A DNA stretch of 56,485 bases from positions 1-56,485 of IMG/VR virus record IMGVR_UViG_3300042876_000067; one strand, written 5' to 3'. The translations under genes were made by a program, and so were the position numbers. Below the pieces are notes generated by a model. It was not told the origin of the DNA and did no database searches. It was given only the letters and a program-made list of their open reading frames with translations. Origin of the DNA: a virus. This document shows, piece after piece, positions 40,090-56,485 of the stretch; position 1 is the first letter of the stretch; each line of letters starts with the position of its first letter.

Positions 40090-41333
40090 AAACAATTCCA
40101 ATTATTAATAAAGACCACTTACTAAACGATAGTAAGACATTCTGCATGTTCCCGTGGATGCACTTGAACGTCACTCCTAAAGGTGACATCTATCCGTGCT
40201 GTAGTAACAACTATACAGAACCCTACGCTAATACAAAGAACACAACTCTTAAAGAGGCTTTCAACAATGACCATATGAAGCAATTGCGTTTGGACATGTT
40301 AGCTGATAAGCCTAGCAAGATTTGTGACTTCTGTTATAAGCATGAAGAAGCAGGACCCCATTCGTTCCGTAACTATAGTAAAGAACAGTTCGCCAAACAC
40401 TTTGATGATATCGTTCCTACAACACTAGAAGATGGCACAGTCCCTGACTTCAAGATGCACTATTTTGATATTCGTTTCAGTAACATTTGTAACTTCAAGT
40501 GCAGAACATGTGGATCAGAATTCAGTAGCCAATGGGGTGCAGAGATGCGAGCCAATCACGATCCCAAGCACCCAATTGTCATTCATGCTGACGACAACAA
40601 GGGCGAACTATTGAAAGAAGTACTAGAACATATCGAGCATATTGACCTAGCTTACTTTGCAGGTGGCGAGCCTACATTGACCGAAGAGCATTACATTATG
40701 CTTGAGGAAATGATTCGCAAAGGTCGTACTGACATTACACTCAGATACAATACAAACGCTAGTAACATCAAGTTTAAAGACTACGATTTATTAGACATGT
40801 GGAAACACTTTAAGAAGATTGAGCTAAGTTGCTCAGTGGATCACTATGGTGAACGTGCTGAATGGCTACGCTCAGGAACAGATTGGGGAGTCGTTGAATC
40901 TAATCTATTGCGCTTCCGTAACTTAGACTATGTTTCGTTTCAGATGAACACCGTGTTCAGTATCTTTAACTATAGCACAATCGGTGAGTTCTATCAGTAT
41001 TTGAAAGACAAAGGAATCATTCGTAGAGAAGATTGGTATCATAGTCTCTATCTTGCAGTTCACCCTAGCTATTATAGTGCTAAGTCATTGCCCAAAGAGC
41101 TAAAGATAGAAGCAGCAGAGAAGGCACTTGCATGGGCTAAGAGTAACGAGGGTGACGGTACAAGTCTATCACGATTGGTTACTGATGCCGTAAACTTTGC
41201 AAGTGACAGTCATACTTGGGCCGAGAATAAGCCAATCTTCTTGCAACACACTGCTAGTATTGATAGAATCAGAGATGAAAGTTTCTGGAAAACTTTTCCC
41301 GAATTAAATAAATTGAAAGACGCAACAGAATAA
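40086..41333 (+). CDS. Radical SAM protein with N-terminal twitch-like module, copy 3
   Basis: The 415-residue product is the closest relative of copy 2. Auxiliary cysteines lie in FCMFPWMHLNVTP, YPCCSNN and KICDFCYKHEEAG; the radical SAM cysteines are C135, C139 and C142 in CNFKCRTC, preceded by MHYFDIRFSNI; and the SAM motif is YFAGGEP. Conservation between copies 2 and 3 covers the core (TEEHYIMLEEMIRKGRTDI; LRYNTNASNIKFKD; SVDHYGERAEWLR) but drops in the C-terminal 130 residues, where substrate binding probably differs. The gene starts inside the previous stop (ATGA) and its stop shares one base with the following ATG. Confidence 0.82.
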   Translation: MKTIPIINKDHLLNDSKTFCMFPWMHLNVTPKGDIYPCCSNNYTEPYANTKNTTLKEAFNNDHMKQLRLDMLADKPSKICDFCYKHEEAGPHSFRNYSKEQFAKHFDDIVPTTLEDGTVPDFKMHYFDIRFSNICNFKCRTCGSEFSSQWGAEMRANHDPKHPIVIHADDNKGELLKEVLEHIEHIDLAYFAGGEPTLTEEHYIMLEEMIRKGRTDITLRYNTNASNIKFKDYDLLDMWKHFKKIELSCSVDHYGERAEWLRSGTDWGVVESNLLRFRNLDYVSFQMNTVFSIFNYSTIGEFYQYLKDKGIIRREDWYHSLYLAVHPSYYSAKSLPKELKIEAAEKALAWAKSNEGDGTSLSRLVTDAVNFASDSHTWAENKPIFLQHTASIDRIRDESFWKTFPELNKLKDATE

Positions 41334-42604
41334 TGCAAGATCCAATTGTAGTAGAGAATTTAGTAAAGCATGGAAAACACTTTTGTGTTTTGCCATGGGT
41401 ACACTTTCATTCATGGCCTGATGGCCGTGTGATGCCATGCTGTATTGCTGACAGCAACATGCCTGTTGCTGAAATCAAGAAGGATGAATCTATCATCCAG
41501 ATGATGAACAGCGAAGACTATAAGCGTATGCGTAGCGCAATGCTTAACGATGAGCCAGTAGAAGCATGTAAACGTTGCTATGACTTAGAGTTGATGGGCA
41601 CATGGACAATGCGCCAAAGTCATAACAAGCGCAGAGGCTTAGAGTATGTCAAAGAAATTGCAGAGACAACTAAAGACAACGGTGAGATTACAGACTTCAA
41701 GATGAAGTACATGGACTTGCGATTCAGCAATATGTGTAACATGAAATGTCGCTCATGCGGCCCTGGCTGCTCTAGTCTATGGGCTCAAGAGTTTGTTGAC
41801 AGAATGGGCGTAGACGAGTACGAAAAGTATTTCAAGACACGCAAGATTGTTATCAATCAAGCAGAAGAAATGAGCTTTATGAACAAATTAAAGCCATACT
41901 TGAAAGACGTATTGGAAGTATACTTCGCAGGTGGCGAGATCATTATCACACCTGAACACTATGAATGCTTAGACTATTGGATTGAGAACGGATTGAATGA
42001 GCAAGTTGAATTGACTTATACAACTAATCTAAGTTCACTCAAGTACAAAGACAAAGACTTGATCGGGTATTGGAAGAAGTTCCCCCAGCTTAAAATCTGG
42101 GCTAGCTTAGATGCTATGGGAGACACTGCGGAGGTAATTCGTAAGGGTACTGATTGGGAACGTATCGTGAAGAACATGAAAGCTATTAAAGAACAAGTGC
42201 CCCACGCTCAGTTTCAAATCACCCCTACGATTAGTATCTGGAACGTATTTCACTTCCCTGACTTCTTTGACTATATGGTTGAAGAAGGGTTTATTGATAC
42301 TAAGTCAAGCCCACGTTTCAACTTAGCAACTAACCCATGGTATGCAAACATCATGATTCTTCCTGTATCTGTCAAGCGTAGACTAGCAGAATTGTATCGT
42401 GTATATCAGAACAAGTACAAAGACAACCAAGATATCTACAACGGGTTCAAGATGATTATCTACAATTTAACTGTAGGTGACGAGAACAAAGGTGGTATCC
42501 TAGAATTCAAGAAATTCAATGATGAATTAGACGAGTTCCGTGACGAGAAGTTTGAGGACATTTGTCCAGAAATTAAAGAGGTATATGAATGGGCAAAAAG
42601 CTAA
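41333..42604 (+). CDS. Radical SAM protein with N-terminal twitch-like module, copy 4 (GGEI variant)
   Basis: The 423-residue enzyme follows the layout of copies 2 and 3: FCVLPWVHFHSWPDG, MPCCIADSN and ACKRCYDLELMG form the auxiliary module, and C135, C139 and C142 in CNMKCRSC form the core cluster. The SAM-contacting motif is YFAGGEI, with the usual proline replaced by isoleucine. The later TTNLSSLKYKDKDLIGYW and SLDAMGDTAEVIRKGTDW regions show the common origin. It is more distant from copies 2 and 3 than they are from each other. It overlaps the upstream gene by one base and the next by 16. The substrate is unknown; the neighbours suggest a sugar or sugar-linked carrier. Confidence 0.8.
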   Translation: MQDPIVVENLVKHGKHFCVLPWVHFHSWPDGRVMPCCIADSNMPVAEIKKDESIIQMMNSEDYKRMRSAMLNDEPVEACKRCYDLELMGTWTMRQSHNKRRGLEYVKEIAETTKDNGEITDFKMKYMDLRFSNMCNMKCRSCGPGCSSLWAQEFVDRMGVDEYEKYFKTRKIVINQAEEMSFMNKLKPYLKDVLEVYFAGGEIIITPEHYECLDYWIENGLNEQVELTYTTNLSSLKYKDKDLIGYWKKFPQLKIWASLDAMGDTAEVIRKGTDWERIVKNMKAIKEQVPHAQFQITPTISIWNVFHFPDFFDYMVEEGFIDTKSSPRFNLATNPWYANIMILPVSVKRRLAELYRVYQNKYKDNQDIYNGFKMIIYNLTVGDENKGGILEFKKFNDELDEFRDEKFEDICPEIKEVYEWAKS

Positions 42605-43557
42605 TAGCGATTGAGGCTCCCCAGCCCTATCTAGCGGTTACTTGGCAAGTTAACAACTACTGTAACTTCAAGTGTAGCTACTGTAATCCGGGCAACTGGG
42701 GAGGAACTGACCTCAACAATGATAACCTAGACGTTTATATTAATAATCTAGAAACGATTATCAACAAGTACAAAGCTGCCGGGTACAAGAACTTTAAGTT
42801 CTTCTTCAGTGGCGGTGAGCCAACAGCATGGAAGAACTTTATCCCAATCTGCGAATGGCTCTACGAGAAACTACCTCGCGCTACTCTAGCAGTTAATACT
42901 AATTTGAGTCGTCCTCTTGCTTGGTGGCAAAAGCACTATCATCTATTTGATGATGTGGTCGCAAGCTATCACGTAGAGTTCAGTGACAAGAAACGCTATG
43001 AAGAAAACAGTATCTTCCTATGCGATAAAGTCAACTATCTTTCTACTAAGATGCTAATGCACGAAGAAAGATTCTGGGAAGTCGTAGAGTATGGTAACTA
43101 TCTAAAGACAGTTATGCCCAATTACTTTGTTGAGTGGACTCCATTGTTCGATGAAATGTCAGTCAACGCTGGTCCTTGGCAGTATAAAGACCCTGCTAAA
43201 GAAGCATGGTTACGTGAGCATACTACTGAAATTCAGCAGACAAAGCGTAAGCCCATGAAGCGTACAACGTTGACTGTTAGTTATAACAAGTATGATGACG
43301 ATAGCACTGAGGTTTGCAACAGTAATGAAGTTATTGTTGCTGGTAACAACTTCTTTAGTGGTTGGAACTGTAACGTAGGTGATGCTATCTTTATCAACCC
43401 TGTAGGTGAGATGAGTCTAGCAAGCTGTGGCATGGGTGGGTATGTAGGGCATATCTTAACTGATATTAATCGGGTAGGACCCAAGCAAATTATGTGCGAA
43501 AAAGAGCACTGTCATTGCGGCACAGATATTATCATACCCAAGTTCTTAGAGCAATAA
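42589..43557 (+). CDS. Stand-alone radical SAM protein with C-terminal cysteine cluster
   Basis: This 322-residue protein lacks the N-terminal module and starts almost directly with the core: VTWQVNNYCNFKCSYCNPG, cysteines C25, C29 and C32, then FFFSGGEPTAWKNF. The C-terminal 70 residues carry WNCNVGDAIFINPVG, SLASCGMGGYVG and CEKEHCHCGTDIII, a cysteine-rich twitch/SPASM-like arrangement that would bind an auxiliary cluster. The arrangement is thus opposite to copies 1-4, so it is a different subfamily placed in the same cluster. Its start overlaps the upstream gene by 16 bases, and its stop codon is inside the AATAAATA box that precedes the next gene. It may act on a peptide or glycan; no substrate motif can be read. 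Confidence 0.8.
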   Translation: MGKKLIAIEAPQPYLAVTWQVNNYCNFKCSYCNPGNWGGTDLNNDNLDVYINNLETIINKYKAAGYKNFKFFFSGGEPTAWKNFIPICEWLYEKLPRATLAVNTNLSRPLAWWQKHYHLFDDVVASYHVEFSDKKRYEENSIFLCDKVNYLSTKMLMHEERFWEVVEYGNYLKTVMPNYFVEWTPLFDEMSVNAGPWQYKDPAKEAWLREHTTEIQQTKRKPMKRTTLTVSYNKYDDDSTEVCNSNEVIVAGNNFFSGWNCNVGDAIFINPVGEMSLASCGMGGYVGHILTDINRVGPKQIMCEKEHCHCGTDIIIPKFLEQ

Positions 43558-43560
43558 ATA
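43553..43560 (+). promoter_or_regulatory. Candidate internal late promoter box AATAAATA
   Basis: AATAAATA covers the stop codon of the radical SAM gene and ends only 6 bases before the next ATG, so transcription from it would start at or near the start codon. Chance occurrence around a TAA stop is possible. Confidence 0.38.
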
Positions 43561-43566
43561 GAATTT

Positions 43567-44880
43567 ATGTCAGATAAAATTAAAATTTGTTATAGCTGGA
43601 TAGGGCCGAAGGGCCCTATCCTAAATACTGAACTACCAAACTTACTAAGTTTTGCAGCAGTTGCGCAAGGTACAACTACTGATAGTAGAATGTTTTGGTG
43701 TGACAGTGTTTGGAATGAAATCTTCTGTAATCGTCCTGGTTACGAACTGTATCATATATCAATGCTAGAAGATAAAGATGTATTCATCTATCCTTATGCA
43801 TTAATGTGGCGCATCCCGTTGGGTAATTACTATCTGTATAACTCTGGTATACTAGAATTCTCACATACACCTGAGCACGTAATTCATCAAGTAAGAAGCA
43901 ACGGTGGTTATTTCTTAATTGACCTAAGTGCTGAGGCATTTGTTCAGGAACAACAGCTTGGGTTGATGCATTCTTACTTTGGATTCTATGGTATTCCATT
44001 GAGCAAAATCATCTATGTTACTGGGTGTATGAATGCAAATGATCTATATGAGATTTACTGTGCCAAGCACAATATCACTGACCCAAGAGACAAAATGCAT
44101 CTTATCTCTTATCCTACAAGTCAGAATGGTATTGCTAGAAATCTAACGTTGAGACCCATACCACCTGAACCAAATTACGATACTGAGGTAGTTCCTGAAA
44201 AATTATTTTTGTCTTGGAATCGCAGATATCGTAGTCACAGAATTTCATTAGTCTTGGGTTTAGAGAAAGAAGGACTAGTCGATAGATCGTATATCAGCTT
44301 GGGAAAGAACGACCCAGAGAACACATCATTCAAGTTCGAAGATGTTGTATCCCCTGAAAAGCGTAGATTCTTGGGTGTTACTGATGAAACAATGCAAAGT
44401 TTAATGAATAAACTACCGTTAGTATTAGACGGAGAAACAAACATTCATCAGATGTGCGGAGACTTTGACGGTGCCGCAAGAAACTTCTATCAGAATAGTT
44501 TAGTTAGCTTAGTTACTGAGACTAATTATGACTTAAATGAAGTCACGTTGACAGAGAAATCATTTAAGCCATTAAAAGAAAAGCATCCGTTTATTATTTT
44601 AGGCGTTAAAGGAACACTTAAATCTCTACGAGAGTTAGGCTTTCAAACGTTTAGTGAATTTTGGCCAGAAGACTATGATGAAATCGATGACCCTAACATT
44701 AGAATGCGCAGGACAATCGAGATTCTACGTGAGATTGGTCGCTGGGACAACGAGAAAATCTTAGACTTTAGACGCAGAGTTAAACCTATACTAGAGCATA
44801 ACTTTAAAATGGTTAAAGTCAAATCAAGTGATGTGGTTGCGGAAAAGATTAAGAACATCATTAGGAGCAAACACCCGTGA
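43567..44880 (+). CDS. Glycosyltransferase-like protein of the N-(R/K)-x-x-x-HR family
   Basis: The 437-residue protein contains two signatures that recur in this window: LFLSWNRRYRSHRISLVLGL at about residue 213, followed by KEGLVDRSYISLG, and TLTEKSFKPLKEKHPFIILG at about residue 330, followed by SLRELGFQTF and a DYDEIDDP stretch. The second looks like the donor-binding end of GT-B glycosyltransferases such as GT10 fucosyltransferases (EK-x-x-x-P/A-L, then PF/VVLG), so a glycosyltransferase is the best guess; no family name is certain. The N-terminal 200 residues are unique to this copy. A perfect 10-bp hairpin lies in codons 11-19. The end overlaps the GTG start of the epimerase by four bases. 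Confidence 0.6.
   Translation: MSDKIKICYSWIGPKGPILNTELPNLLSFAAVAQGTTTDSRMFWCDSVWNEIFCNRPGYELYHISMLEDKDVFIYPYALMWRIPLGNYYLYNSGILEFSHTPEHVIHQVRSNGGYFLIDLSAEAFVQEQQLGLMHSYFGFYGIPLSKIIYVTGCMNANDLYEIYCAKHNITDPRDKMHLISYPTSQNGIARNLTLRPIPPEPNYDTEVVPEKLFLSWNRRYRSHRISLVLGLEKEGLVDRSYISLGKNDPENTSFKFEDVVSPEKRRFLGVTDETMQSLMNKLPLVLDGETNIHQMCGDFDGAARNFYQNSLVSLVTETNYDLNEVTLTEKSFKPLKEKHPFIILGVKGTLKSLRELGFQTFSEFWPEDYDEIDDPNIRMRRTIEILREIGRWDNEKILDFRRRVKPILEHNFKMVKVKSSDVVAEKIKNIIRSKHP
43598..43621 (+). other. Perfect 10-bp GC-rich hairpin in the 5' coding region
   Basis: Arms 43598-43607 (GGATAGGGCC) and 43612-43621 (GGCCCTATCC) are exact reverse complements around loop GAAG, 31 bases after the ATG of the gene at 43567. 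No U-tract follows, so it is not a standard terminator. It is the strongest inverted repeat noticed in coding sequence here. Confidence 0.85.
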
Positions 44881-45854
44881 AAAATATCGTAGTATGCGGA
44901 GCTGGTGGGTTCATTGGGACCCACCTAGTCGAGAAACTGAAAGAACAAGGTAATTACGTTGTGGGTGTTGACCTGCATTATCCACTGTACGGTGAGTCAA
45001 GTGCTGATGAGTTTATCATCGCTGATTTACGTGTGCATAGTAACGTTGACCATGTACTTAGTGCAGACACCGACGAAGTATATCAATTAGCAGCAGACAT
45101 GGGCGGAGCCGGCTATATCTTTACAGGTGAACACGATGCTGATATCATGCACAACAGTGCAACTATCAACTTGAACGTATTAGATGTTATGAAGAAGAAA
45201 GGCATTAAGAAAGTCTTTTATTCTAGCAGTGCATGTATGTACCCAAGTCATAATCAAGAGGATCCTCTCAACCCGTTAATGGCTGAAGACAGTGCATACC
45301 CTGCGAACCCAGACAGTGAATATGGATGGGAAAAACTATTCAGTGAACGACTATATCTTACATACGCACGTAACTATAACATTGACGTTAGAGTAGCACG
45401 ATTCCACAACATCTTTGGCCCTCGTGGATCATGGAACAATGGTAAAGAGAAAGCCCCAGCAGCACTATGTCGCAAAGTAGCGTTGTGTGAAGACAAAGGA
45501 ACTGTAGAGATATGGGGTCCGGGTAATCAAACACGTAGCTTCTTATTCATTGACGAGTGCATTGAAGGTATTCAACGTATCATGGAAAGCGATTGTACTA
45601 TCCCCGTCAACCTTGGAAGTACACGTATGATATCAATTAACAATCTAGTATGGTTAATTGCTAAATTAAACAACAAGAATGTATCAATTAAAAACATTCC
45701 GGGACCCGTAGGCGTTATGGGTCGCACAAGTGACAACAAATTAATCAAAGAAATGATTAATTGGGTACCTGACGAAGATTTAGAGAGTGGTTTAATTAAG
45801 ACTTACAACTGGATCAGTGAACAAATCGCTAAGGGCGAGAAAGACGTAGAATGA
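44877..45854 (+). CDS. GDP-mannose 3,5-epimerase homologue (short-chain dehydrogenase family)
   Basis: The 325-residue protein has a Rossmann start (VVCGAGGFIGTHLVE), C120 in SSSACMYP, catalytic Y149 and K153 in SEYGWEK, then RFHNIFGPRGSW and K192 in KEKAPAALCRK, and WGPGNQTRSFLFIDECIEG. The Cys in SSACxYP and the Lys in EKAPAA correspond to the acid/base pair that lets GDP-mannose 3,5-epimerase invert C3 and C5 to give GDP-L-galactose (or the gulose form). The MGGAGYIF loop is also typical. Length is close to bacterial and plant enzymes (about 320-380). The start is GTG, overlapping the upstream stop (GTGA). In phages this supplies an unusual activated sugar to the glycosyltransferases nearby. 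A related NDP-sugar epimerase is the main alternative. Confidence 0.82.
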   Translation: MKNIVVCGAGGFIGTHLVEKLKEQGNYVVGVDLHYPLYGESSADEFIIADLRVHSNVDHVLSADTDEVYQLAADMGGAGYIFTGEHDADIMHNSATINLNVLDVMKKKGIKKVFYSSSACMYPSHNQEDPLNPLMAEDSAYPANPDSEYGWEKLFSERLYLTYARNYNIDVRVARFHNIFGPRGSWNNGKEKAPAALCRKVALCEDKGTVEIWGPGNQTRSFLFIDECIEGIQRIMESDCTIPVNLGSTRMISINNLVWLIAKLNNKNVSIKNIPGPVGVMGRTSDNKLIKEMINWVPDEDLESGLIKTYNWISEQIAKGEKDVE

Positions 45855-46720
45855 CAAAGAAGTATATTATCGGATTAGGATGCAGCTGGACACAAGGCGA
45901 AGGTGGTTATCCAGATCAAGTATGGAAAGATCACGGTGGCCGTGTACAAGTTCGCGGTCGTGATGACTATTATCTACGTCATATTGAGCATGAGAACAGT
46001 TGGGTCAATGTATTGTGCAGAGACTATTTCCCCGATCATACTCCAATCAACTTAGGCGCTCGTGGTATCGGAAACAGAGCCGCAGTTAATCAACTTCATT
46101 TCTGTGATAGAGTAGACTTTGACAACAGCGAAGGTATCATCGTTCTAATGTTGAGTGGCTTTGAACGCTATGACTTCTTTCATCAGAACCCTAAGCATAA
46201 TAACGGTCAAGACGATGGTTACAGCACGGGTGAGTTCGTACATTATAAGTGGCGTACAGCATGGCCTTTCCCCGGTGAAGATCCTATCTGGACAACATAT
46301 GGTAAAGAACTATGGAGTGAACAGTTTGTTGCTTCTAGTCAAATGATGGCCTTACTTGACTTGCAAAACTTCTGTAAGGCACATAACTATAAACTAGTCG
46401 TGGCCAACGGATTTAATCAAAGTCCAGGTGGTGTAGAGCGTTATCTAAAAGAATATTCAGGATACTTAAAAGATAAGTTTAAATGGGACGAGCATTATAT
46501 TCACAAGACTACTGATTATGGTGCTATGATTCAGAAACTAATCTGGCTCGACGGACTAATTAAACCCGAAGACTGGGGTGCATATCATAACTTCTATCAC
46601 AAGATGGATTATCCAGCTAAATATCTTACTAACTGCGAAGGGGCACACCCTACACTTGAAGGTTACAAAGTAATCGGAGAAGAGTTAGCAAAGTTTATTA
46701 AGTTGCGTGGATATGCCTAA
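45851..46720 (+). CDS. SGNH/GDSL-like hydrolase or acyltransferase, copy 1
   Basis: This 289-residue protein begins YIIGLGCSWTQGEGGYPD, a block-I variant (G-C-S-W/F-T) of the SGNH family, with S12 as probable nucleophile. NLGARGIGNRAAV gives the block-II glycine, and block V is EGAHPTLEGY with H266 as catalytic histidine. The expected acidic residue just before His is less clear (CEGAH rather than DxxH). The middle has aromatic-rich segments (YDFFHQNPKHN, EFVHYKWRTAWPFPGEDPIW). Related phage proteins with GCSxT occur next to sugar genes and may deacetylate or acylate sugars. It overlaps the epimerase gene by four bases and the following radical SAM gene by at least eight. Confidence 0.65.
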   Translation: MTKKYIIGLGCSWTQGEGGYPDQVWKDHGGRVQVRGRDDYYLRHIEHENSWVNVLCRDYFPDHTPINLGARGIGNRAAVNQLHFCDRVDFDNSEGIIVLMLSGFERYDFFHQNPKHNNGQDDGYSTGEFVHYKWRTAWPFPGEDPIWTTYGKELWSEQFVASSQMMALLDLQNFCKAHNYKLVVANGFNQSPGGVERYLKEYSGYLKDKFKWDEHYIHKTTDYGAMIQKLIWLDGLIKPEDWGAYHNFYHKMDYPAKYLTNCEGAHPTLEGYKVIGEELAKFIKLRGYA

Positions 46721-48638
46721 AAAAATAGTTAGTTTCGTTAATCCAAATTTTCAGCAGGGACCGAAGGAGTTTAATGCATATTATCTCCCGTATAGCCCTG
46801 CTGTCCTATGGAGTTATGCTTCACAGTTTCAACACATCAGTGATAACTATGAGCTAGGAGAATTTGTTTGGAGACGAGACAAAATCGAAGATGTTGTTGA
46901 GTTACTAAAAGACCACGATGTTGTTGGTTTCAGTACCTATATCTGGAATCGAAGCTATAACACAGTTCTTGCACGTGAGTTAAAGAAAGCTAATCCTAAT
47001 ATCTTAATCTTAGGTGGCGGCCCCGAATACCCTATCGAAAAGCCTGATCTATTCAGAAAGCATCCTAACGTTGATATCTGTGCTAAACTTGAAGGTGAAA
47101 TTAGTTTCAAGCGTATTCTAGAAGAATTTATGGGTGATAAGAACTATAAAAGTATCCCTGGACTTATTATTAATGACAACGGAAAGAAACTAGACACAGG
47201 TGATGCAGAACGTATAGGTGAATTAGACGTTATTCCCAGCCCCTATTTGACTGGCGTGTTCGATAAACTGATTGCTAAACATCCCGAGATTACTTGGAAC
47301 GCTACACTAGAAAGTAATAGAGGATGCCCCTATGCATGTACATTTTGCGACTGGGGAAGTCTCACATATAATAAAGTAAAGACCTTTGCATTAGAAAGAG
47401 TTTATGCTGAATTAGAATGGGTCGGAAAGAATAAATGCGACTTTGTTAGTTTAACTGACGCCAATTTCGGTATATATGCTGAACGTGATAGCTTAATTGC
47501 AGATAAACTTATCAGTGTACAGAAAGAATATGGCAACCCTAAGGCATATACTATCAGTTGGGCAAAGAATCAAAAGAAAGAAGTTGTTGATATCGTTCGT
47601 AAATTGATTTACGAAGGTGGCAGTAAGATCGGTTTAAACCTTTCTGTGCAGACAATGGACGATAATGTACTAGAGATTATCAAAAGAAAGAACCTAGATA
47701 CTAACAAGATCGAAGAAGTCTTTGAAATGTGTGAAGAACACAATATCCCACTGTATACTGAATTGATTCTAGGACTTCCGGGCGAGACATTAGAAACCTG
47801 GAAGCAAAACTTCTATAAACTATATCGTGCAGGTAATCACACGGGTATTACTATCTATCAGGCTCAGTTATTGGAAAATGCTGAGATGAACCTACTACAA
47901 AGAAAACTCTATAAACTAGAGGGTAGAACCGTATACGATTATCTCGTGGGTACATACAATGAGCATGAGTTACAAGAAGGTGTTGAAGTAATTGTTTCAA
48001 CCAAAGACTTACCTGTAGAGAAAATGGTTGAAGCGCAATTATTCAGTTGGTTCATGAATACGTTTCACATTAACGGAATGACTAACTTTATCAGTCGCTA
48101 TCTATACAAGAAGGGTATTCCCTATGAGACATTCTACGAGAATCTTTTAGTACATATTAGACAAGACGAATGGTTCAGTAAAGAGAACGACCGTATCAAA
48201 GATCATTATCAACGCTGGACAGAGATTGGTAGAATCGATCATGAACCTATTCAGGGTATGGAGATTCACGGTTGGAATCTAGTTCACAGTACAATGATTA
48301 ACTTGCACAGTGACGGTAAACATGAGCATGTATTCAGAGTAATTGAAGACTTTATGCGAAAGAACTATAGTGATATTGATCCAGAGATAATGGAAGAACT
48401 ATTAACTATTCAACGCAGTTTCGTTGTGGACCATGCTAAGATCAGTGAGTATCCAAGAACATTAAACTTTAAGCACGATATTATTGGATATATTCAGCAT
48501 GATAATGATTTAAATAGTCCTAGCACATATCTATTTGACTTCCCAGAAGATAAAGATATGAGCCTACAAAGATTCTGTGAACAGATTTTCTTTGCTAGAC
48601 GCAGAAACTTTGGTAAAGCGTGGGTTAGCAAACAATGA
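46713..48638 (+). CDS. B12-binding-type radical SAM protein, copy 1
   Basis: Starting at the ATG at 46713 (a GTG at 46707 would add two residues), the 641-residue protein has an N-terminal cobalamin-binding-like Rossmann part (KDHDVVGFSTYIWN, NPNILILGGGPEYP, CAKLEGEISFKRILEE) and a radical SAM core with C205, C209 and C212 in CPYACTFC, followed by DWGSLTYNKVKTF. Further core strands are FVSLTDANFGIYAERD and LYTELILGLPGETLETW, typical of the BchE/MiaB-like B12 radical SAM group. The C-terminal 200 residues, with QRWTEIGRIDHEPI, are an extra domain without known match. Such enzymes often methylate unactivated carbons or rearrange carbon skeletons; the substrate here is unknown. It overlaps both neighbours. 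Confidence 0.8.
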   Translation: MPKKIVSFVNPNFQQGPKEFNAYYLPYSPAVLWSYASQFQHISDNYELGEFVWRRDKIEDVVELLKDHDVVGFSTYIWNRSYNTVLARELKKANPNILILGGGPEYPIEKPDLFRKHPNVDICAKLEGEISFKRILEEFMGDKNYKSIPGLIINDNGKKLDTGDAERIGELDVIPSPYLTGVFDKLIAKHPEITWNATLESNRGCPYACTFCDWGSLTYNKVKTFALERVYAELEWVGKNKCDFVSLTDANFGIYAERDSLIADKLISVQKEYGNPKAYTISWAKNQKKEVVDIVRKLIYEGGSKIGLNLSVQTMDDNVLEIIKRKNLDTNKIEEVFEMCEEHNIPLYTELILGLPGETLETWKQNFYKLYRAGNHTGITIYQAQLLENAEMNLLQRKLYKLEGRTVYDYLVGTYNEHELQEGVEVIVSTKDLPVEKMVEAQLFSWFMNTFHINGMTNFISRYLYKKGIPYETFYENLLVHIRQDEWFSKENDRIKDHYQRWTEIGRIDHEPIQGMEIHGWNLVHSTMINLHSDGKHEHVFRVIEDFMRKNYSDIDPEIMEELLTIQRSFVVDHAKISEYPRTLNFKHDIIGYIQHDNDLNSPSTYLFDFPEDKDMSLQRFCEQIFFARRRNFGKAWVSKQ

Positions 48639-49639
48639 AAGATACATTAACATATGATCCAGTAGACGGATACGATGTTACTCAGATCGTTAATGACATA
48701 GCAAAGTATAAAGCTAAACGAGTAATTATATTCAATGAGTTAGAGTGGGAGCAACGTCATTTCCCTAAACATTTCTATGACTTATTGAAAGAGTTTAAAA
48801 TTGAATTTACTATGATTCATGGTAGTTTCCCTGATAAAGTCTATAATGATTACTGTGATTCAATGGGATTAGAATATAGTCAGATAGAGTTCTGGCCTAC
48901 ATTCTGGATAAGCTGGACTGAAATGTGTCTACGTTCTAATTTCCCGTATAAAGAATACACACCTACAACTGAACACAAATACCCCTTCATAAGTTTAAAC
49001 AACAAAGGGCATGTTCACCGTTGTGCGTTAATAGATAATCTAGCACGACATAACCTAATAGACAAAGGTGTAGTCACGTATCACAACTTTGTCACTAATC
49101 ATGGTTACCCCTTCAAGTATTATGACGGTAGAATCAGAACCATTGACGATGATTTTGCTACTAGATTAGATTCATTTCTATTGCCAGAACAGTTCCATCA
49201 ATCGTTCCTACATGTAGTAGGTGAAGCTACCACAACAGTCAATATTATCAGTGAGAAAACACTAATCCCTATCTTCTTAAAGAAGCCTTTTATATCATTA
49301 GGTAAAGAAGGGTTTAACCAGTGTTTAACTGACTTAGGATTTGAGTTATACACAGAGTTATTCGACTATAGTTTTGACAGAATAACAGACATGGAAACAC
49401 GTGCTAGTATGGTTGCAGACAATGTAAACAGTATCGTGGGTAAAGACTATAATCAATTATATGAGTTAATTAAGCCTAAATTGATACACAATTACAATCG
49501 TGCCCAAGAGATTATACACGATATAAACTATATTCATCCACTCGCTGTTGAACGTGTAAACTATGTTGGGCTTGAAGGGTATAAGCCAATGCACAGTGAC
49601 GGCAGATATATTAACTTAGTCAATCAATGCTTAAAGTAA
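48635..49639 (+). CDS. Glycosyltransferase-like protein of the N-(R/K)-x-x-x-HR family, second complete copy
   Basis: The 334-residue protein has PFISLNNKGHVHRCALIDNL at about residue 115 with ARHNLIDKGVVTYHNF, and IISEKTLIPIFLKKPFISLG at about residue 204 with CLTDLGFELY and a DYSFD segment. The same order is found in 43567, 49627 and the middle of 51491. Here the first motif is NNKG-x-x-HR. The 100-residue N-terminus is alpha/beta (YKAKRVIIFNELEWEQ). Because it is adjacent to the next copy and overlaps it by 13 bases, the two probably arose by duplication, though they are now strongly diverged. A glycosyltransferase activity is inferred from the EK-T...P-I/L...PF-I-x-LG pattern only. Confidence 0.58.
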   Translation: MKDTLTYDPVDGYDVTQIVNDIAKYKAKRVIIFNELEWEQRHFPKHFYDLLKEFKIEFTMIHGSFPDKVYNDYCDSMGLEYSQIEFWPTFWISWTEMCLRSNFPYKEYTPTTEHKYPFISLNNKGHVHRCALIDNLARHNLIDKGVVTYHNFVTNHGYPFKYYDGRIRTIDDDFATRLDSFLLPEQFHQSFLHVVGEATTTVNIISEKTLIPIFLKKPFISLGKEGFNQCLTDLGFELYTELFDYSFDRITDMETRASMVADNVNSIVGKDYNQLYELIKPKLIHNYNRAQEIIHDINYIHPLAVERVNYVGLEGYKPMHSDGRYINLVNQCLK

Positions 49640-50703
49640 CACAACGCTGGACCCTAAACTTCCCTGAATTTGTCAAGGATATTGAAGATAATCCTTCGGT
49701 TGTATCACATATTCTACTAGACTTTCTGCAAGAGATATTGTATACCTGGCCTACTGAAACTGTAGCGTATGAGAGGTTATTAGATATCGCATACGAACAC
49801 AATATCCCTGTCACAATTGTTACTCCGTATCCAAAGACTATGCCTCCTTTACTTGACTTTAATGAGCCTAAGTACAAGCGTATTAACATGATATACATGC
49901 CAGAGTTCTGGTTCACTCGTACATATAATATGTGGACATTAAGCCAGGGCAATATGGACATGAATCTTGCTAAGAATGTAGATATGCGAGACATGAACTT
50001 TGGAGAGAATAACAATAATTTCAATTATCTTTATATCTGTACAAACAACATAGCCAAGCGTCATCGTTGCTTAGTAATGGATCTATTGGCTAAACACAAT
50101 CTAATTGATCGTGGTGCAATATCCTGGAGAGACATTATTCACGCATTTGACGAAGACCGTCATCTATATCCAGACTTACTAGACAGTCAACGGGGCAATT
50201 ATCCATATCAATATTGGACTCCTAAACGAATGTTCTTGGACTATGATCTAAGTTACTTTCATCAAGAAACAGTTCCAGAACAGTTTAAAGAATCCTTTAT
50301 GCAGTTAGTTACAGAGAGTGATGACGAGATTGTTTTCTTTAGCGAAAAGACCGCGACTCCGATACTATTAAACAAAATCTTCTTAGTGGCCGGTTCTCAG
50401 TATCATCACAGAGAATTAAACAGTATGGGCTTTGTAAACTATGACGAGATTTTTGATTATAGTTTTGACACAGAACCTGATAATCATAATAGATATGAAA
50501 AGATTATTGAGAATGTTAAACGTCTTTCTGTCTTATCCCGTGAAGAATTAGCTGAGTTATACAAGAAACTATGGCCAAAGATTGTACATAACAAACGTGT
50601 GGCAATGGGTTATGTCAATAATCTTCCAAAAGAAGTGTTACCGTTCTTAGATATACTGAAAAATGAAACTGAGTATACGGGCCCACTAAATATGTTTCTA
50701 TGA
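49627..50703 (+). CDS. Glycosyltransferase-like protein of the N-(R/K)-x-x-x-HR family, third complete copy
   Basis: The 358-residue product has YLYICTNNIAKRHRCLVMDL at about residue 132 followed by LAKHNLIDRGAISWRDI, and VFFSEKTATPILLNKIFLVA at about residue 236, then ELNSMGF and a YSFDTEPDNHNRY stretch. The spacing between the two motifs, about 100 residues, is like the copy at 48635. The N-terminus again has an alpha/beta half (HNIPVTIVTPYPKTMPP). It starts inside the upstream gene (13-base overlap) and ends sharing four bases with the SGNH gene. The repeated presence of the family in one transcription unit suggests enzymes that add successive sugar units, which remains to be shown. Confidence 0.58.
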   Translation: MLKVTQRWTLNFPEFVKDIEDNPSVVSHILLDFLQEILYTWPTETVAYERLLDIAYEHNIPVTIVTPYPKTMPPLLDFNEPKYKRINMIYMPEFWFTRTYNMWTLSQGNMDMNLAKNVDMRDMNFGENNNNFNYLYICTNNIAKRHRCLVMDLLAKHNLIDRGAISWRDIIHAFDEDRHLYPDLLDSQRGNYPYQYWTPKRMFLDYDLSYFHQETVPEQFKESFMQLVTESDDEIVFFSEKTATPILLNKIFLVAGSQYHHRELNSMGFVNYDEIFDYSFDTEPDNHNRYEKIIENVKRLSVLSREELAELYKKLWPKIVHNKRVAMGYVNNLPKEVLPFLDILKNETEYTGPLNMFL

Positions 50704-51479
50704 ACTTTGAATGGTCAAAATATAAAAGAGTCTTCACGTTTGGTTGCAGCTTTACTAGTTACTACTGGCCAACTTGGGCAGACGTAATCTTTCAAGAAAC
50801 TCCTCAAGCAGAACTATACAATTTTGCACGTGCCGGAGCAGGTAATCTAATGATTACTTCACGTATTGCAGAAACTAATCAACGATATAAATTCAACGAA
50901 GATGACTTGGTATTAGTCATGTTCACAACTCCTACAAGAGAAGACAGATGGTTAACTAACGGTGGTTGGCTAACATTGGGTAATATCTATAATCAGGATA
51001 GATATAGTGACGAATGGGTCAGAGAGTTTGCTGATGAACGTGGGTATTTAATTAGAGATCACGCTCTTGTGGATATGTCAATCACGTATCTAAATAGTCT
51101 TCCATGTACAAGTTACTGTATGGCTAGCTCACCTTTCGTAATCGATGCCGAAAGCAATATTTTTGACAAAGCTAATCCTCACGAAGATGTCCAAGAACTA
51201 TATAAAGACAGCATGAAACGACTTCCAAAGTCATTATATGAGTTTGATTACGCTAAAGAATATAAGTCAGATCATATTAAATTTGGAGACGGGCATCCAT
51301 CGACTATGATGTATTATCAATATCTAAAGAATATTGGATTTAATCTATCTGATAAGACATACGAATTTGCAAAAGACTCTACAGAAAAACTGTTTAAGAT
51401 AACAGATAGACATGATTGTTTTAAAGTATTTCCAGAATGCGATGAAAGAGTCTCGGTAATGTACAAAACACTGTATTAA
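50700..51479 (+). CDS. SGNH-like hydrolase or acyltransferase, copy 2
   Basis: The 259-residue protein shows RVFTFGCSFTSYYWPTW with S17 as probable nucleophile, ARAGAGNLMITSRI as block II/III, and D197-G198-H199 in FGDGHPSTMMYYQYL as the catalytic Asp/His block. The GCSFT version is common in phage and cyanobacterial SGNH proteins, and the triad here is more complete than in copy 1. The middle is aromatic-rich (TNGGWLTLGNIYNQDR). The C-terminal extension after residue 215 contains DRHDCFKVFPECDERV, absent from copy 1. Removing or adding an acyl group on a sugar fits the setting. It overlaps the upstream gene by four bases and is followed by an 11-base gap. Confidence 0.68.
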   Translation: MNFEWSKYKRVFTFGCSFTSYYWPTWADVIFQETPQAELYNFARAGAGNLMITSRIAETNQRYKFNEDDLVLVMFTTPTREDRWLTNGGWLTLGNIYNQDRYSDEWVREFADERGYLIRDHALVDMSITYLNSLPCTSYCMASSPFVIDAESNIFDKANPHEDVQELYKDSMKRLPKSLYEFDYAKEYKSDHIKFGDGHPSTMMYYQYLKNIGFNLSDKTYEFAKDSTEKLFKITDRHDCFKVFPECDERVSVMYKTLY

Positions 51480-51490
51480 GAAAGAAACGA

Positions 51491-54400
51491 ATGAAAAAAG
51501 TAGCAATGATTGGCGTGGGTAAATTAGGCCAAGACTGTGCAGAAGTAATGTTTGACGCAGGACATGACGTTGTTGGTTATGACGTTGTAGAACGTAACCC
51601 AGCTTTTCCAATGCGTAGTACGATTGAAGAAGCCGTTAAAGACAGAGACTTGATCTTTATCGCAGCACCAACACCCCATGATCCTATTTACGGTGGCGAG
51701 ACTCCAACTAGCCATCTACCTAACAAAGACTTTGATTATACTATCGTTACAGACATTCTTAACGAAGTCAATAAACATGTCACAAAGAGTCAATTAGTTG
51801 TCCTCATCAGTACCGTTCTGCCAGGAACAGTTCGCAACATCCTAGAGCCGTGTATCACTAACGCACGGTTCATTTATAACCCTTACTTAATTGCAATGGG
51901 TACAGTAAAATGGGACATGGTTAATCCAGAAATGGTTATAATCGGTACAGACGACGGTAGCACTACTGGTGACGCTAGTGAACTAATTGACTTCTACAAC
52001 GGTTTCATGCAGAATAATCCACGCTATGAAATCGGAACATGGGACGAAGCCGAATCAATTAAGATATTCTACAATACATTTATCAGTACCAAGCTAGCAT
52101 TAGTCAATATGATTCAAGACGTTGCAGAACGTAACGGCAATATCAATGTAGACGTAGTAACAAACGCATTGAAGCACAGTACCTATCGCATTATGGGCCC
52201 TGCATACATGACTGCCGGGCTCGGAGATGCAGGTGCATGTCACCCTAGAGATAACATTGCATTACGCTATCTAGCAGATAGACTAGACTTAGGATATGAC
52301 TTGTTTGATAGTATTATGACCGCACGTGAGAAACAAGCAGAACTAATGGCACTTAAATGTTTGAAGAACGGCAAGAACATTACTATAATTGGTAAAGCAT
52401 ACAAGCCAGCAGTTCCATACTTAAACGGCTCTGCAAGCATGTTAGTTGGATACTATATCGAAAAGCACGGTGGTCAAGTTCATTACTATGATCCTAACAC
52501 AGGAGACAATGATCTAAGACGCAACTGGACTCATGTATATCTAATTGGTTATTGGGAACAATGGGTCGAAGAAATTAAATTCGACAATCACATTGTTGTT
52601 ATTGACCCGTGGCGCAAGATTACAGATAAGCAGCATACAGGGGAGATCATTCATTACGGTGATACTCGTAAAAGAGAGACTAGATATGTCACGCCACCTG
52701 AATCAATTAGTATAATGCAGTACCAATTATACAATATTTGGCCGTCATTACAACAATATGCCAGTCAGACTCATCTGGTCTATGCTGGAATTGAAATGTC
52801 AACCTCATTCATTAAGCGCCCAACAGAAGATATTATCAACGAAATTCTACATGCAAGTAGATTCGAGGGTAAAAAGAAGTTTTTATTCTGGACTGTCGAA
52901 GAAGGATTCTTGAGTCACATTGTTAGTAAGATTCAACGAATCGCTGATGTTATTGGGCATGAGATTGGTCCCGACAACTTATTCTATCTAACCAGCAGTG
53001 TGGATGGTGTAGAAGCATATCAACGAGAACGTAAAACACATGAATGGCATCATAATATCAACGTATTAGCGTGTCACGGACTCGAATTTAAAGCAGCTAA
53101 GATGGCTATTAAGGACTTCGATAGTCTTCCAGAATACGATCCAACAGTTAAGAAAAACAAACTATTTGTATGCTTTAATAAAGTAGACCGTGAGCATCGT
53201 TTGAAATTATTAGAACGTATGATGGGTAACGGTTTAATTGACAAGGGTTACTATTCATTTGAAGGCACTGACGGCTTACAAGATCGTATTAATGGAATGA
53301 TTCCCGATGAGTTTCCAAATATCATTCTTAACAAAGACAAATTACCACTAAGATTAAACATAAACGAGAACCGTGTTAATCCTGTTGACATTATTAGTGA
53401 TGATATCAAGTACCATCGTGATAGTCATTTCAGTATTGTTACGGAAACAATCTTCTATAAAGATTATCGTACAGTGAAATACAACGCTGGACAATATGCT
53501 GACAGCATGTTTATTACAGAAAAGACTTATCGTTGTATGATCTTGGAACATCCATTTATTGCATTAGCTCGACCAGGATTACTAAAAGAGTTAAAGAATA
53601 GTGGCTACAAGACATTTAGTCCATATATCAATGAAGCATACGATGATATTGAAAACGATCAAGACCGTTTTAACTTTGTAGTCAATGAGATTGAAAGACT
53701 ATGTAATCAGACGGATGAAGAATGGGCTGAGTGGGAGCGTAATATATTAGCTATCGTCAAACACAATAGTCAACATGTCAAAACACGTGACTATAGCCCT
53801 ACAGATATTACACCTTTCTTTAGTGATTTAGCAAAAGACAGTAATTGCAAGCCCATCTATTTGTCACAAGAGAAACCTGACTATATGACATTAATGGACA
53901 CTAATGTAGATAGAGATTGGACACCGCAAACAATCGAACTTAGCGGAGGAATCAAAGTCACGTTCCCTACACATTTAGATGGCGGTGGTAGAGAAATGGT
54001 TTCAGATTTAGTTACTGCAATCTGTGCTTCTGGTAAGAGCTATTATAACAGAGCATTTGAATGGTGTGCAGGATTTGGTGTGTTGGGATATGAATTACTA
54101 GGTCTGCATCTAACTAAGTCTCTAGTGTTTAGTGATTATTATGACATTGCCATCAGACATTGTGTTGATACTGCAAACAGTAACGGTTTAAGTAGTAAGG
54201 TTACCGGTTATGTTACTCCATGTATTGGCAATATACCTGAACACGAAAAATGGGATTTGGTTGTATCCAATCCTCCTCACAGTGAAGAAGCTAGTGGATT
54301 CTTTGACCATATGCGAAACGATCCAGAACGCAGTCATCAGTTTATTGAAAACAGTGCAAGATTAGTTGTAGACGAGAATTGGGGAATACACAAAGAGTTC

Positions 54401-54574
54401 TATGCTAATATCAGAAAACATTTATCTGACGATGCTGACCTTTATATCATTGAATCTGTTCAGGATGTGCGATATGAAGCATTTATCGAAGAAGCAGGAT
54501 TGTATATTGTGAACAAATACCCAATAAAGTTTTTGCCCAAAGGTGCAATTTATCACTTAAAGGTCAAACAGTAA
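51491..54574 (+). CDS. Three-domain fusion: nucleotide-sugar dehydrogenase, glycosyltransferase-like, methyltransferase
   Basis: The 1027-residue protein joins three domains. Residues 1-400 resemble UDP-glucose/GDP-mannose 6-dehydrogenases: G8-V-G-K-L-G13 NAD-binding loop, STVLPGT at about 107, EAESIKIFYNTFISTKLAL, catalytic-type C250 in GACHPRDNIAL, and GKAYKPAVPYLNGS; these oxidise the sugar C6 to an acid. Residues about 405-780 repeat the local family: LFVCFNKVDREHRLKLLE at about 557 and MFITEKTYRCMILEHPFIAL at about 673. Residues about 820-1027 form a class I methyltransferase with FEWCAGFGVLGYELL at about 857 and SNPPH at about 926, like N/O-methyltransferases with NPP(Y/F). Length is about 2.5 times a typical dehydrogenase. 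No frameshift or internal start was seen. It may form and transfer a methylated uronic acid, which is inference. Confidence 0.8.
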   Translation: MKKVAMIGVGKLGQDCAEVMFDAGHDVVGYDVVERNPAFPMRSTIEEAVKDRDLIFIAAPTPHDPIYGGETPTSHLPNKDFDYTIVTDILNEVNKHVTKSQLVVLISTVLPGTVRNILEPCITNARFIYNPYLIAMGTVKWDMVNPEMVIIGTDDGSTTGDASELIDFYNGFMQNNPRYEIGTWDEAESIKIFYNTFISTKLALVNMIQDVAERNGNINVDVVTNALKHSTYRIMGPAYMTAGLGDAGACHPRDNIALRYLADRLDLGYDLFDSIMTAREKQAELMALKCLKNGKNITIIGKAYKPAVPYLNGSASMLVGYYIEKHGGQVHYYDPNTGDNDLRRNWTHVYLIGYWEQWVEEIKFDNHIVVIDPWRKITDKQHTGEIIHYGDTRKRETRYVTPPESISIMQYQLYNIWPSLQQYASQTHLVYAGIEMSTSFIKRPTEDIINEILHASRFEGKKKFLFWTVEEGFLSHIVSKIQRIADVIGHEIGPDNLFYLTSSVDGVEAYQRERKTHEWHHNINVLACHGLEFKAAKMAIKDFDSLPEYDPTVKKNKLFVCFNKVDREHRLKLLERMMGNGLIDKGYYSFEGTDGLQDRINGMIPDEFPNIILNKDKLPLRLNINENRVNPVDIISDDIKYHRDSHFSIVTETIFYKDYRTVKYNAGQYADSMFITEKTYRCMILEHPFIALARPGLLKELKNSGYKTFSPYINEAYDDIENDQDRFNFVVNEIERLCNQTDEEWAEWERNILAIVKHNSQHVKTRDYSPTDITPFFSDLAKDSNCKPIYLSQEKPDYMTLMDTNVDRDWTPQTIELSGGIKVTFPTHLDGGGREMVSDLVTAICASGKSYYNRAFEWCAGFGVLGYELLGLHLTKSLVFSDYYDIAIRHCVDTANSNGLSSKVTGYVTPCIGNIPEHEKWDLVVSNPPHSEEASGFFDHMRNDPERSHQFIENSARLVVDENWGIHKEFYANIRKHLSDDADLYIIESVQDVRYEAFIEEAGLYIVNKYPIKFLPKGAIYHLKVKQ

Positions 54575-54638: not shown

Positions 54639-56485
54639 TTGGATTTCAATCTAAAATCTTTAGCCGCTAAAAAAGTCGAGCCAAAAGAAAAACCCACAGA
54701 AGATATCGCTGATGCACGCCATCGTTCAATGATGGAAGCTATCGCACCATATGCGAAAAAGACTGTCCAAAAGAACTTAACGCCTGTATACGTAGACTAC
54801 AAGACACGTAAGACTAAGCTAGCATTAGTTCTATGTCCTGAATGGTCACCCCATATGCCTCCATTTAGTCTAGCAAGGCTGAGTGGCATCGCTAAGAGTG
54901 CAGGATATGAAACAACAATCATGGACTTGAACGTTAAGGCATACAATGCTCACCGTGATGACTGGCAACCCAATAAGAAACTTCCCTTTAGACTATGGGA
55001 TCCTAGTGCATCATGGCACTGGCTCGGAGACACATATCTAAACGACATTCACCCCGTACTCGAACCTATTCTTACTCAAGCTATTGACGAGCTTGTAGAA
55101 CTACAGCCTGATGTTGTTGGCTTTAGTGTCTATTACATTAGCGAAGAACCCACTAAGTGGATGTGTCGTGAACTAAAGCGTAGAATGCCCAACGTTAAGA
55201 TCGCTGTTGGTGGTCCTAACGTACACAAATCATGGTTCAAGATCGAAGACTATTATGATTATGTTGTAGTGGGTGAAGGTGAACAGAACCTATTAGTTCT
55301 ATTAGACGATGTAGAGCAAGGTAATGTGCGTAACACCCCGTTAGTTCTTACACAGCCCGAAGATCAACGTATCAACATCAATGGCTTGCCAATGCCAGAC
55401 TATGAATCTATTGACTTCAATCTATACGAATTGCCTAACGGCGTTAATAGTGAAATCAGTCGTGGTTGCACAGCTAAGTGTACATTCTGTGAAGAAACAC
55501 ACTTCTGGAAGTACCGTCAGCGTCAGAGCGTTGACTTAATTGACGAGATTGAATGGCTTTATTACAACAAAGGCACAAACATTGTTTGGTTTATTGACAG
55601 TTTAATTAACGGTAATCCAAATGAATTACGTGCATTTGCTCTAGCATTAAAGAATAAAAACCTAGACGTTAAGTGGACAGGCTATGCACGTTGTGATGGC
55701 CGTATGAATTTAGAGTATTTGCAAGACTTAAAAGACGGTGGCGCAATTATGTTTAATTTTGGCGTAGAGTCAGGGAGTCAAAAAGTCCTAGACGATATGG
55801 CTAAGGGTGTTACTATTCAAGAGATGGAGCAGAACTTTATTGACTGCAAGAAGGTTGGTATCTATGCTGCAACTAACTGGATCGTAGGCTTCCCCACTGA
55901 AGACTATCAAGACTATGCAGACACAATGACGTTCTTGTGGCGTATGCGTAATAACAATATCAATAACGCTGGCTTAGGCGTAGGATATGGCATGGGTCCA
56001 GAGACTATTGTAGGACAGAATCCACACAAGTTTAACATCAGTTGGCACAAGTACATGGGTCATTGGATCCGTAATGACTTTACGTTCGGTGGCACACATT
56101 TGTTAATGCGAGTAAAGACTTGGCATATGTTTGCTGACTTCTTGCGTGGTGTAACAGAAGTTCCAATCAGTTATCCTCATCGTTCGTCATTAGAGAAAAG
56201 TCACTATAAGATTAAATTAAATAATCCTAAGGTACAGAATGAAATTAAGTACGAGAAATTTGACTACAATATCATTCCACCAGTTGATGTTAATAACAAT
56301 CCCTTCGCTAACAGTCTAGTCAACGAGATATGGCCCTTCTTGCGTATGCTTTGGAAGTGTCGTGGAGGTTATGAAGCTGAGATTCATTTCAACCCTGAGA
56401 TTGATTTAAAAGAATTCGGTAGTCAATTTGGCCCGGGTATGTTTAATGCAGTGTATAAGTTTACGATTAGTGACGAAGGTCAATG
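54639..56485 (+). CDS. B12-binding-type radical SAM protein, copy 2 (C-terminus outside window)
   Basis: The frame begins with TTG at 54639 (protein MDFNLKSLAAKK), eight bases after AGGAG, and is open to the window end (about 615 residues). The first ATG is some 30 codons later without a ribosome site, so TTG is preferred. The N-terminal 200 residues are cobalamin-binding-like (PPFSLARLSGIAKSAGYE, PDVVGFSVYYISEEPT, KIAVGGPNVHK, YVVVGEGEQNLLVLL). The core cysteines are C277, C281 and C284 in CTAKCTFC, followed by ETHFWKYRQRQS, IVWFIDSLINGNPNEL and ATNWIVGFPTEDY. It differs clearly from copy 1 at 46713. Its own promoter and hairpin separate it from the upstream block. Substrate unknown. Confidence 0.8.
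   Translation, partial: MDFNLKSLAAKKVEPKEKPTEDIADARHRSMMEAIAPYAKKTVQKNLTPVYVDYKTRKTKLALVLCPEWSPHMPPFSLARLSGIAKSAGYETTIMDLNVKAYNAHRDDWQPNKKLPFRLWDPSASWHWLGDTYLNDIHPVLEPILTQAIDELVELQPDVVGFSVYYISEEPTKWMCRELKRRMPNVKIAVGGPNVHKSWFKIEDYYDYVVVGEGEQNLLVLLDDVEQGNVRNTPLVLTQPEDQRININGLPMPDYESIDFNLYELPNGVNSEISRGCTAKCTFCEETHFWKYRQRQSVDLIDEIEWLYYNKGTNIVWFIDSLINGNPNELRAFALALKNKNLDVKWTGYARCDGRMNLEYLQDLKDGGAIMFNFGVESGSQKVLDDMAKGVTIQEMEQNFIDCKKVGIYAATNWIVGFPTEDYQDYADTMTFLWRMRNNNINNAGLGVGYGMGPETIVGQNPHKFNISWHKYMGHWIRNDFTFGGTHLLMRVKTWHMFADFLRGVTEVPISYPHRSSLEKSHYKIKLNNPKVQNEIKYEKFDYNIIPPVDVNNNPFANSLVNEIWPFLRMLWKCRGGYEAEIHFNPEIDLKEFGSQFGPGMFNAVYKFTISDEGQ

Follow-up and report, generated by a model that had tools for sequence, protein, structure and literature searches.

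A recurrent phage protein joining a divergent nucleotide-sugar dehydrogenase, a predicted GT-B domain and a methyltransferase

A three-domain reading frame in a phage genome

The viral record IMGVR_UViG_3300042876_000067 of IMG/VR carries a single reading frame in which three enzyme-like domains are fused. The window analysed here is the whole of that record (positions 1 to 56,485; 56,485 nucleotides). The frame runs from ATG to stop at positions 51491-54574 on the plus strand, as do the features below whose coordinates are written with two dots, and encodes 1027 amino acids (aa) with no internal stops. A nucleotide-sugar dehydrogenase-like domain of what is called here the 'NPYLIAMG' subfamily (51491..52681; aa 1-397) is followed by a middle domain with a GT-B fold predicted from the structural model and Foldseek (52697..53827; ~aa 403-779), a fast-evolving linker (53828..53920; ~aa 780-810) and a class I methyltransferase domain of the MTS type (53921..54571; aa 811-1027), which is related to PF05175, phrog_35227 and PDB 9l4q. 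The frame and its three parts are confirmed to be real. With a probability of roughly 0.6, the frame is read here as coding for a single multi-enzyme protein that belongs to a phage cassette for glycan modification and combines the divergent dehydrogenase with a GT-B domain and a methyltransferase.

The initial annotation of this DNA, made from the letters alone, had described one 1027-codon frame with three enzyme-like domains, and the sequence, the predicted structures and the conservation among relatives now back this description. The AlphaFold model of the full-length protein reached a pLDDT of 89.1 and a pTM of 0.72. Structure prediction, which had been suggested as a check, was applied to the full-length protein and to the middle domain and returned a match to human UGDH for the former and GT-B/2-epimerase matches for the latter. 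In a simple motif scan, the sole in-frame ATG with a Shine-Dalgarno-like match (aa 436) sits within the middle domain, which gives no hint of separate internal products.

The initial annotation had also known of no such fusion among characterised proteins. This holds for the triple fusion, of which no report was found in the literature searched, while an apparent two-domain form is already deposited in BFVD. The 788-aa protein A0A6J5TB28 from an uncultured Caudovirales, annotated as UDP-glucose/GDP-mannose dehydrogenase, would by its length and annotation consist of the dehydrogenase and middle domains and is too short for the methyltransferase domain; it was met there as a fold match of the middle domain. 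The triple-fusion architecture is thus new within what could be searched, and its component domains are of known kinds.

Recurrence and evolution of the fusion

Relatives were collected by IMG/VR scans with the whole 1027-aa protein and an alignment of the methyltransferase part as queries. The middle domain or the methyltransferase as single-sequence queries returned nothing useful. The search for the domain order across phages, run on IMG/VR, yielded five further contigs with the identical order: L108 (1039 aa), L109 and L112 (1045 aa), L110 (1053 aa) and L111/L001 (1054 aa), all at 57-60% identity to the window protein. The triple fusion therefore recurs in six viral contigs, window included.

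It is highly improbable that sequencing or assembly joined separate genes in the window. The dehydrogenase is indeed separate in the close relatives L007, L011 and L086, as this explanation would have it, but the same frame in five further contigs excludes such an accident, and together with purifying selection in all domains it refutes an artefact as a general explanation. Among the five other triple fusions, the ratio of nonsynonymous to synonymous substitution rates (dN/dS), read where dS was unsaturated, was 0.05-0.08 for the dehydrogenase as well as the middle part and 0.07-0.09 for the methyltransferase. Purifying selection acts on each of the three domains, and the linker in front of the methyltransferase changes faster than they do (0.13-0.29). 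Between the window protein and L108, identity is 88% in the dehydrogenase and only 44% and 40% in the middle part and the methyltransferase: oxidation is the conserved step, and the two others are diversifying.

The same domains were found in several other arrangements. Dehydrogenase and middle domain are fused in L002-L006 and L010, and dehydrogenase and methyltransferase, with the middle part absent, in L012 and L099-L106. In L007, L011 and L086-L088, a dehydrogenase gene is directly followed by a fusion of middle domain and methyltransferase, and L008, L016, L021, L045 and others carry separate adjacent genes. The unfused cassette genes mostly abut or overlap; in fused forms, a short connecting stretch follows the conserved HYG(D/N)TR end of the dehydrogenase. 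When 39 dehydrogenase domains were placed on a tree, the triple fusions, window included, came out as one group with moderate support (84/76). The six architectures require 11 changes on it, compared with 23.8 in shuffles. Adjacent and often overlapping genes fuse and split in this series, of which the triple fusion is one state, and co-expression at a fixed ratio would therefore be its minimal benefit.

Whether the fusion has any functional logic can be debated. It is conceivable, if doubtful, that stop codons between neighbours were lost by chance and that the domains work independently. The tree requires no fewer than 11 changes of architecture, and the linkers are short or unconserved, as expected under such a scenario. 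Against it, the order dehydrogenase, middle domain, methyltransferase and B12-binding radical SAM protein is kept, and the diverged contigs with the triple fusion still fall into one group. When the enzymes of a pathway are fused, their steps are tied together, and the existence of fusions of every pair and of all three suggests which of the many uncharacterised cassette genes act on one product.

The dehydrogenase domain

The initial annotation had proposed a UDP-glucose/GDP-mannose dehydrogenase-like domain with cysteine C250. The cysteine was located in a GACHPRD motif, and the domain matches Pfam PF03721 (5e-16; 59.2 bits, cut-off 27), PF00984 (1e-15; 57.6 bits, cut-off 25.4) and phrog_9148 (4e-97). 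The C-terminal domain, PF03720 in this family, scored below the gathering threshold (19.5 vs 30 bits). Human UGDH was found with the full-length model by Foldseek at 1.5e-20. The fold, Cys260 and most invariant residues are common to the window protein and the UDP-glucose 6-/GDP-mannose 6-dehydrogenase family (TIGR03026; PF03721+PF00984+PF03720). In contrast to that family, the window protein has Lys for Tyr10, Tyr for Glu141 and Met for Glu145, lacks Arg327 and bears two extra fused domains. On these sequence comparisons, the nucleotide-sugar dehydrogenase subfamily appears to be divergent.

Among the closest known proteins are the marine phage members of phrog_9148, labelled 'UDP-glucose dehydrogenase', from Bellamy and HTVC008M. 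They belong to the same subfamily, with 52-62% identity and the NPYLIA motif in common. Unlike the window protein, they are free-standing and have a NadE-like gene upstream, and in Bellamy a glycosyltransferase gene lies downstream. In cellular contigs that encode the subfamily, the motif reads NPYLIAMG or NPYLIAQG.

The residues were checked against the positions that vary little or not at all across 229 family members, in the numbering of S. pyogenes (PMC4794789), using 69 aligned homologues and a phmmer alignment to 4a7p in which NPYLIAMG aligns ungapped with NPEFLREG/NPEFLAEG. The nucleophile and base Cys260/Asp264 are kept as C250 and D254 (52238..52252; 68/68 non-gap rows) and the catalytic Lys204/Asn208 as K191 and N195 (52061..52075; 69/69). 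The glycines of GxGxxG, Thr83, Ser117, Thr118, Pro140, Glu201, Asn219, Gly258 and Lys320 are also kept in all relatives, and the Gly257 position is Gly or Ala. The Tyr10 position is occupied by K11 (51521..51523), with Lys in 69/69 homologues, and the Glu141/Glu145 positions (human Glu161/Glu165) by Y132 and M136 (51884..51898), with Tyr and Met in 69/69. The claim that the main motifs are preserved in every part thus holds for the Cys, Lys, Asn and Asp of the dehydrogenase and fails for Tyr10, Glu141 and Glu145. These missing residues, absent from the initial annotation, are the most interesting part of the protein.

In the 229 aligned family members, Glu141 is invariant and Tyr10 is 98% conserved, and the last step, in which the Cys thioester is hydrolysed, has been ascribed to Tyr10 (PMC4794789). 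In the human Glu161Gln enzyme, the thiohemiacetal was trapped in the crystal (PDB 3khu; PMC3184952). Both residues are thus tied to resolving the covalent intermediate. Phage enzymes of the canonical type served as controls; LIS04, SP-15, Kuja and Yong-DA each have Glu141, with Tyr at the Tyr10 position in Kuja and Yong-DA and Phe in LIS04 and SP-15. In the cyanophage group S-SSM7, S-SCSM2R and P-TIM68, Glu141 is kept, Arg stands at Tyr10 and Arg327 is missing. A more distant dehydrogenase relative in a 642-kb phage (L188, LR756502; 32% identity) reads NPFFIAMG and so has Phe at the Tyr132 position; the loss of the glutamate therefore extends past the close subfamily.

With the Cys machinery kept and Tyr10, Glu141 and Glu145 exchanged, covalent catalysis and a first oxidation are both plausible, and the end of the reaction is uncertain. 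Judged from the residues, the product may be a uronic acid, an aldehyde or another compound. The chances are about even that the enzyme is a normal four-electron dehydrogenase which makes a uronic acid, with K11 or Y132, for example, taking over from Tyr10/Glu141. The invariant equivalents of Cys, Asp, Lys, Asn, Thr118, Ser117 and Lys320 argue for it, as do the fold match to human UGDH and the three cyanophage enzymes just mentioned, which represent an intermediate state. The NadE-like gene in front of the dehydrogenase in some phages would fit amidation of a uronate. The invariance of Glu141 in the family and the intermediate trapped in the human mutant speak against it. A four-electron enzyme is compatible with the multi-enzyme reading favoured above and differs only from a more specific proposal, which is unlikely: a reprogrammed dehydrogenase that keeps the Cys chemistry, lacks the residues which take the intermediate through to the free acid, and yields a C6-aldehyde or hands the Cys-bound acyl group to another nucleophile (for example an amine, giving a uronamide), after which the fused domains would transfer and methylate the sugar. 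If the product of the subfamily differs from a uronic acid, this would be a new outcome for a textbook four-electron dehydrogenase.

A NadE-like ligase gene was found directly before the dehydrogenase in HTVC008M, S-SSM7, S-SCSM2R and P-TIM68 and two genes upstream of it in Bellamy. It was seen in Kyanoviridae phages, and none was present within three genes of the dehydrogenase at the other loci examined. This neighbour would fit uronic acid amidation, or NAD supply. In L175, L176, L192, L193 and L195, which are cyanophages and one pelagiphage, the NadE-like gene and the dehydrogenase form a possible oxidation-amidation pair.

The middle domain

Searches of Pfam and of PDB sequences returned no family and no relative for the middle domain. 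Its AlphaFold model, built from 63 sequences, is confident (pLDDT 92.3, pTM 0.90). Foldseek against the PDB placed a UDP-GlcNAc 2-epimerase first, followed by trehalose-6-phosphate synthases, VldE, TarM and other GT-B proteins. Matches to receptors (6me4 and similar) were also listed, which we take to be constructs with a glycogen-synthase fusion partner. MnaA (5enz), trehalose-6-phosphate synthase (5tvg), VldE and TarM consist of two Rossmann-like halves, as the middle domain is predicted to do; in contrast to this likeness, identity is ~8-13% and there is no match at the sequence level. In BFVD, the 788-aa phage dehydrogenase described above and many unnamed phage proteins were retrieved, along with glycosyltransferases of giant viruses and one fucosyltransferase C-terminal protein; named viral glycosyltransferases appeared at 1e-4 or weaker.

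A visual parallel exists with the GT10 fucosyltransferases (PF00852). K-F-x-C-F...R in the middle domain resembles F-C-C-F...R in GT10, and F-S-I-x-x-E-T...T-E-K resembles F-x-I-A-x-E-N...T-E-K. No PF00852 was found in the genomes of the loci, where controls gave no signal either, and a phylum sample was used in their place for the comparison of the GT10 profile. Based on the Foldseek and BFVD results, the domain is likely a GT-B-like nucleotide-sugar enzyme; the comparison with GT10 did not assign it to a specific family. The earlier label 'glycosyltransferase-like' is accordingly supported as a predicted fold only.

The middle domain had been listed as a copy of a local family with the motif N-(R/K)-x-x-x-HR. 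Paralogues do exist in the window, at 43567..44880 (1.2e-18), 49627..50703 (1.9e-7) and, more distantly, 48635..49639 (7.1e-4). The spacing was misstated, as four residues separate the two halves of the motif in N563 K564 V D R E H569 R570 (53177..53200), where R570 is invariant in the 63 sequences. Two further motifs, E652-T653 and E677-K678 (53444..53524), contain the invariant E652 and K678, with T653 and E677 conserved in at least 90% of the sequences. The model provides a confident structure for a large unnamed family with several copies per phage and no Pfam match.

The methyltransferase domain

The class I methyltransferase with an NPPH motif stands as first described. PF05175 was matched above its cut-off (24.9 vs 23 bits), the methyltransferase family phrog_35227 at 3e-18 and PDB 9l4q, the best PDB match, at 8e-23 across nearly the whole domain. 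The domain contains DGGG (aa 830-833), the glycine-rich motif I EWCAGFGVLG and the motif IV NPPH (aa 927-930), and NPPH is present in 37/46 distinct homologues. PDB 9l4q, a 'Methyltransferase small domain-containing protein', has DGGG, EWCxG, NPPH and WxIHxxFY in common with the window domain. The literature search provided no paper on it and no function for it. Both this protein and phrog_35227 are free-standing, unlike the methyltransferase of the window.

A motif IV of the NPPH kind occurs mainly in enzymes that methylate amino or amide groups. O-methylation of a sugar hydroxyl is for this reason not favoured. It is rather unlikely that the target is a nucleic acid or a protein instead of a sugar. 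The type of the motif and a weak match to PrmC (1e-4) would fit such a target, as would a homologue in P-SSM2, which is located between gp41 and mazG. The domain is, nonetheless, fused in three different ways to a sugar-gene cassette, and its free homologues often lie near the 259-aa cassette gene described below (16/46). The P-SSM2 gene (L177:7992-8636) stands among the replication genes gp41, mazG and purH.

Proposed function

The initial annotation had suggested that one polypeptide could oxidise, transfer and methylate a sugar, and from gene context this is plausible. First, the NAD-dependent dehydrogenase would oxidise C6 of a nucleotide-bound sugar via a covalent Cys adduct, as indicated by the fold and the retained Cys250/Asp254/Lys191/Asn195. 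Second, the GT-B domain, going by its fold only, might add a sugar to an acceptor from a nucleotide-sugar, plausibly the oxidised one. Third, the class I methyltransferase of the amino type might methylate the product, the acceptor or its partner. The probable target of the cassette is a glycan, on either the host surface or the virion. Most likely, an oxidised and further modified sugar is made and attached to a host or virion glycan; we infer the substrates and the order of the steps.

Several observations weigh against this reading. The dehydrogenase does not reach the cut-off of NCBIfam TIGR03026 (151.7 vs 189.8 bits) and so falls outside that curated subfamily, Tyr10, Glu141 and Glu145 are replaced in 69/69 homologues, and the NAD-binding Arg327 is lost in this alignment. 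Solved structures match the middle domain weakly (best E 6.7e-4, TM 0.3-0.4), and the hhalign comparison with GT10 (E 0.035) was no better than its control (0.052). The methyl acceptor need not be a sugar, as the relatives of the methyltransferase are mostly free-standing and one sits among replication genes. Lastly, linkage of the domains is not required, since partial fusions and separate genes exist.

The gene neighbourhood

A gene for a B12-binding radical SAM protein (54639..56483; PF04055 1e-19, PF02310 7e-12) lies downstream of the fusion and runs off the window. It is found behind each of the six triple fusions and behind most of the partial ones. On the upstream side, the 259-aa gene (50700..51479) has no Pfam match and is SGNH-like by its GCSFT motif only. 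Its homologues adjoin the dehydrogenase in many loci, and among the loci the upstream side is kept as either this gene or middle-domain paralogues. GCSxT motifs and an SGNH-like look are common to 45851-46720 and 50700-51479, with no family above cut-off; 45851 weakly matches DUF6071.

A GDP-mannose 3,5-epimerase-like gene of the cluster (44877..45854) matches a solved epimerase, PDB 2c59, at 3.2e-89, and a GDP-sugar probably feeds the cassette. The group-specific residues of the dehydrogenase give mixed signs on the donor nucleotide, the GDP-mannose-specific His217 position being Ile198 (residue list of PMC4794789). A NodU-like carbamoyltransferase gene is among the neighbours in relatives. 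A PADLOC scan gave weak or generic matches only.

Radical_SAM matches were obtained for seven cluster genes (37457, 38845, 40086, 41333, 42589, 46707 and 54639), with scores slightly under the Pfam cut-off for 37457, 41333 and 42589. Three tandem radical SAM genes with SPASM domains lie within 37457-48638. The gene at 40086 is a radical SAM protein with a twitch domain (NF033640; 2e-112), and 46707, which is KedN5-like (1.7e-74), and 54639 have B12-binding domains.

Before the cassette, a single frame of 6057 aa occupies 13107-31280. Its first and last 2000 aa were searched and showed almost no Pfam match; it is probably a giant virion or adhesin protein. Toward the left end, the window carries genes for a T4-type late sigma factor, a baseplate hub/lysozyme and a gp25-like protein.

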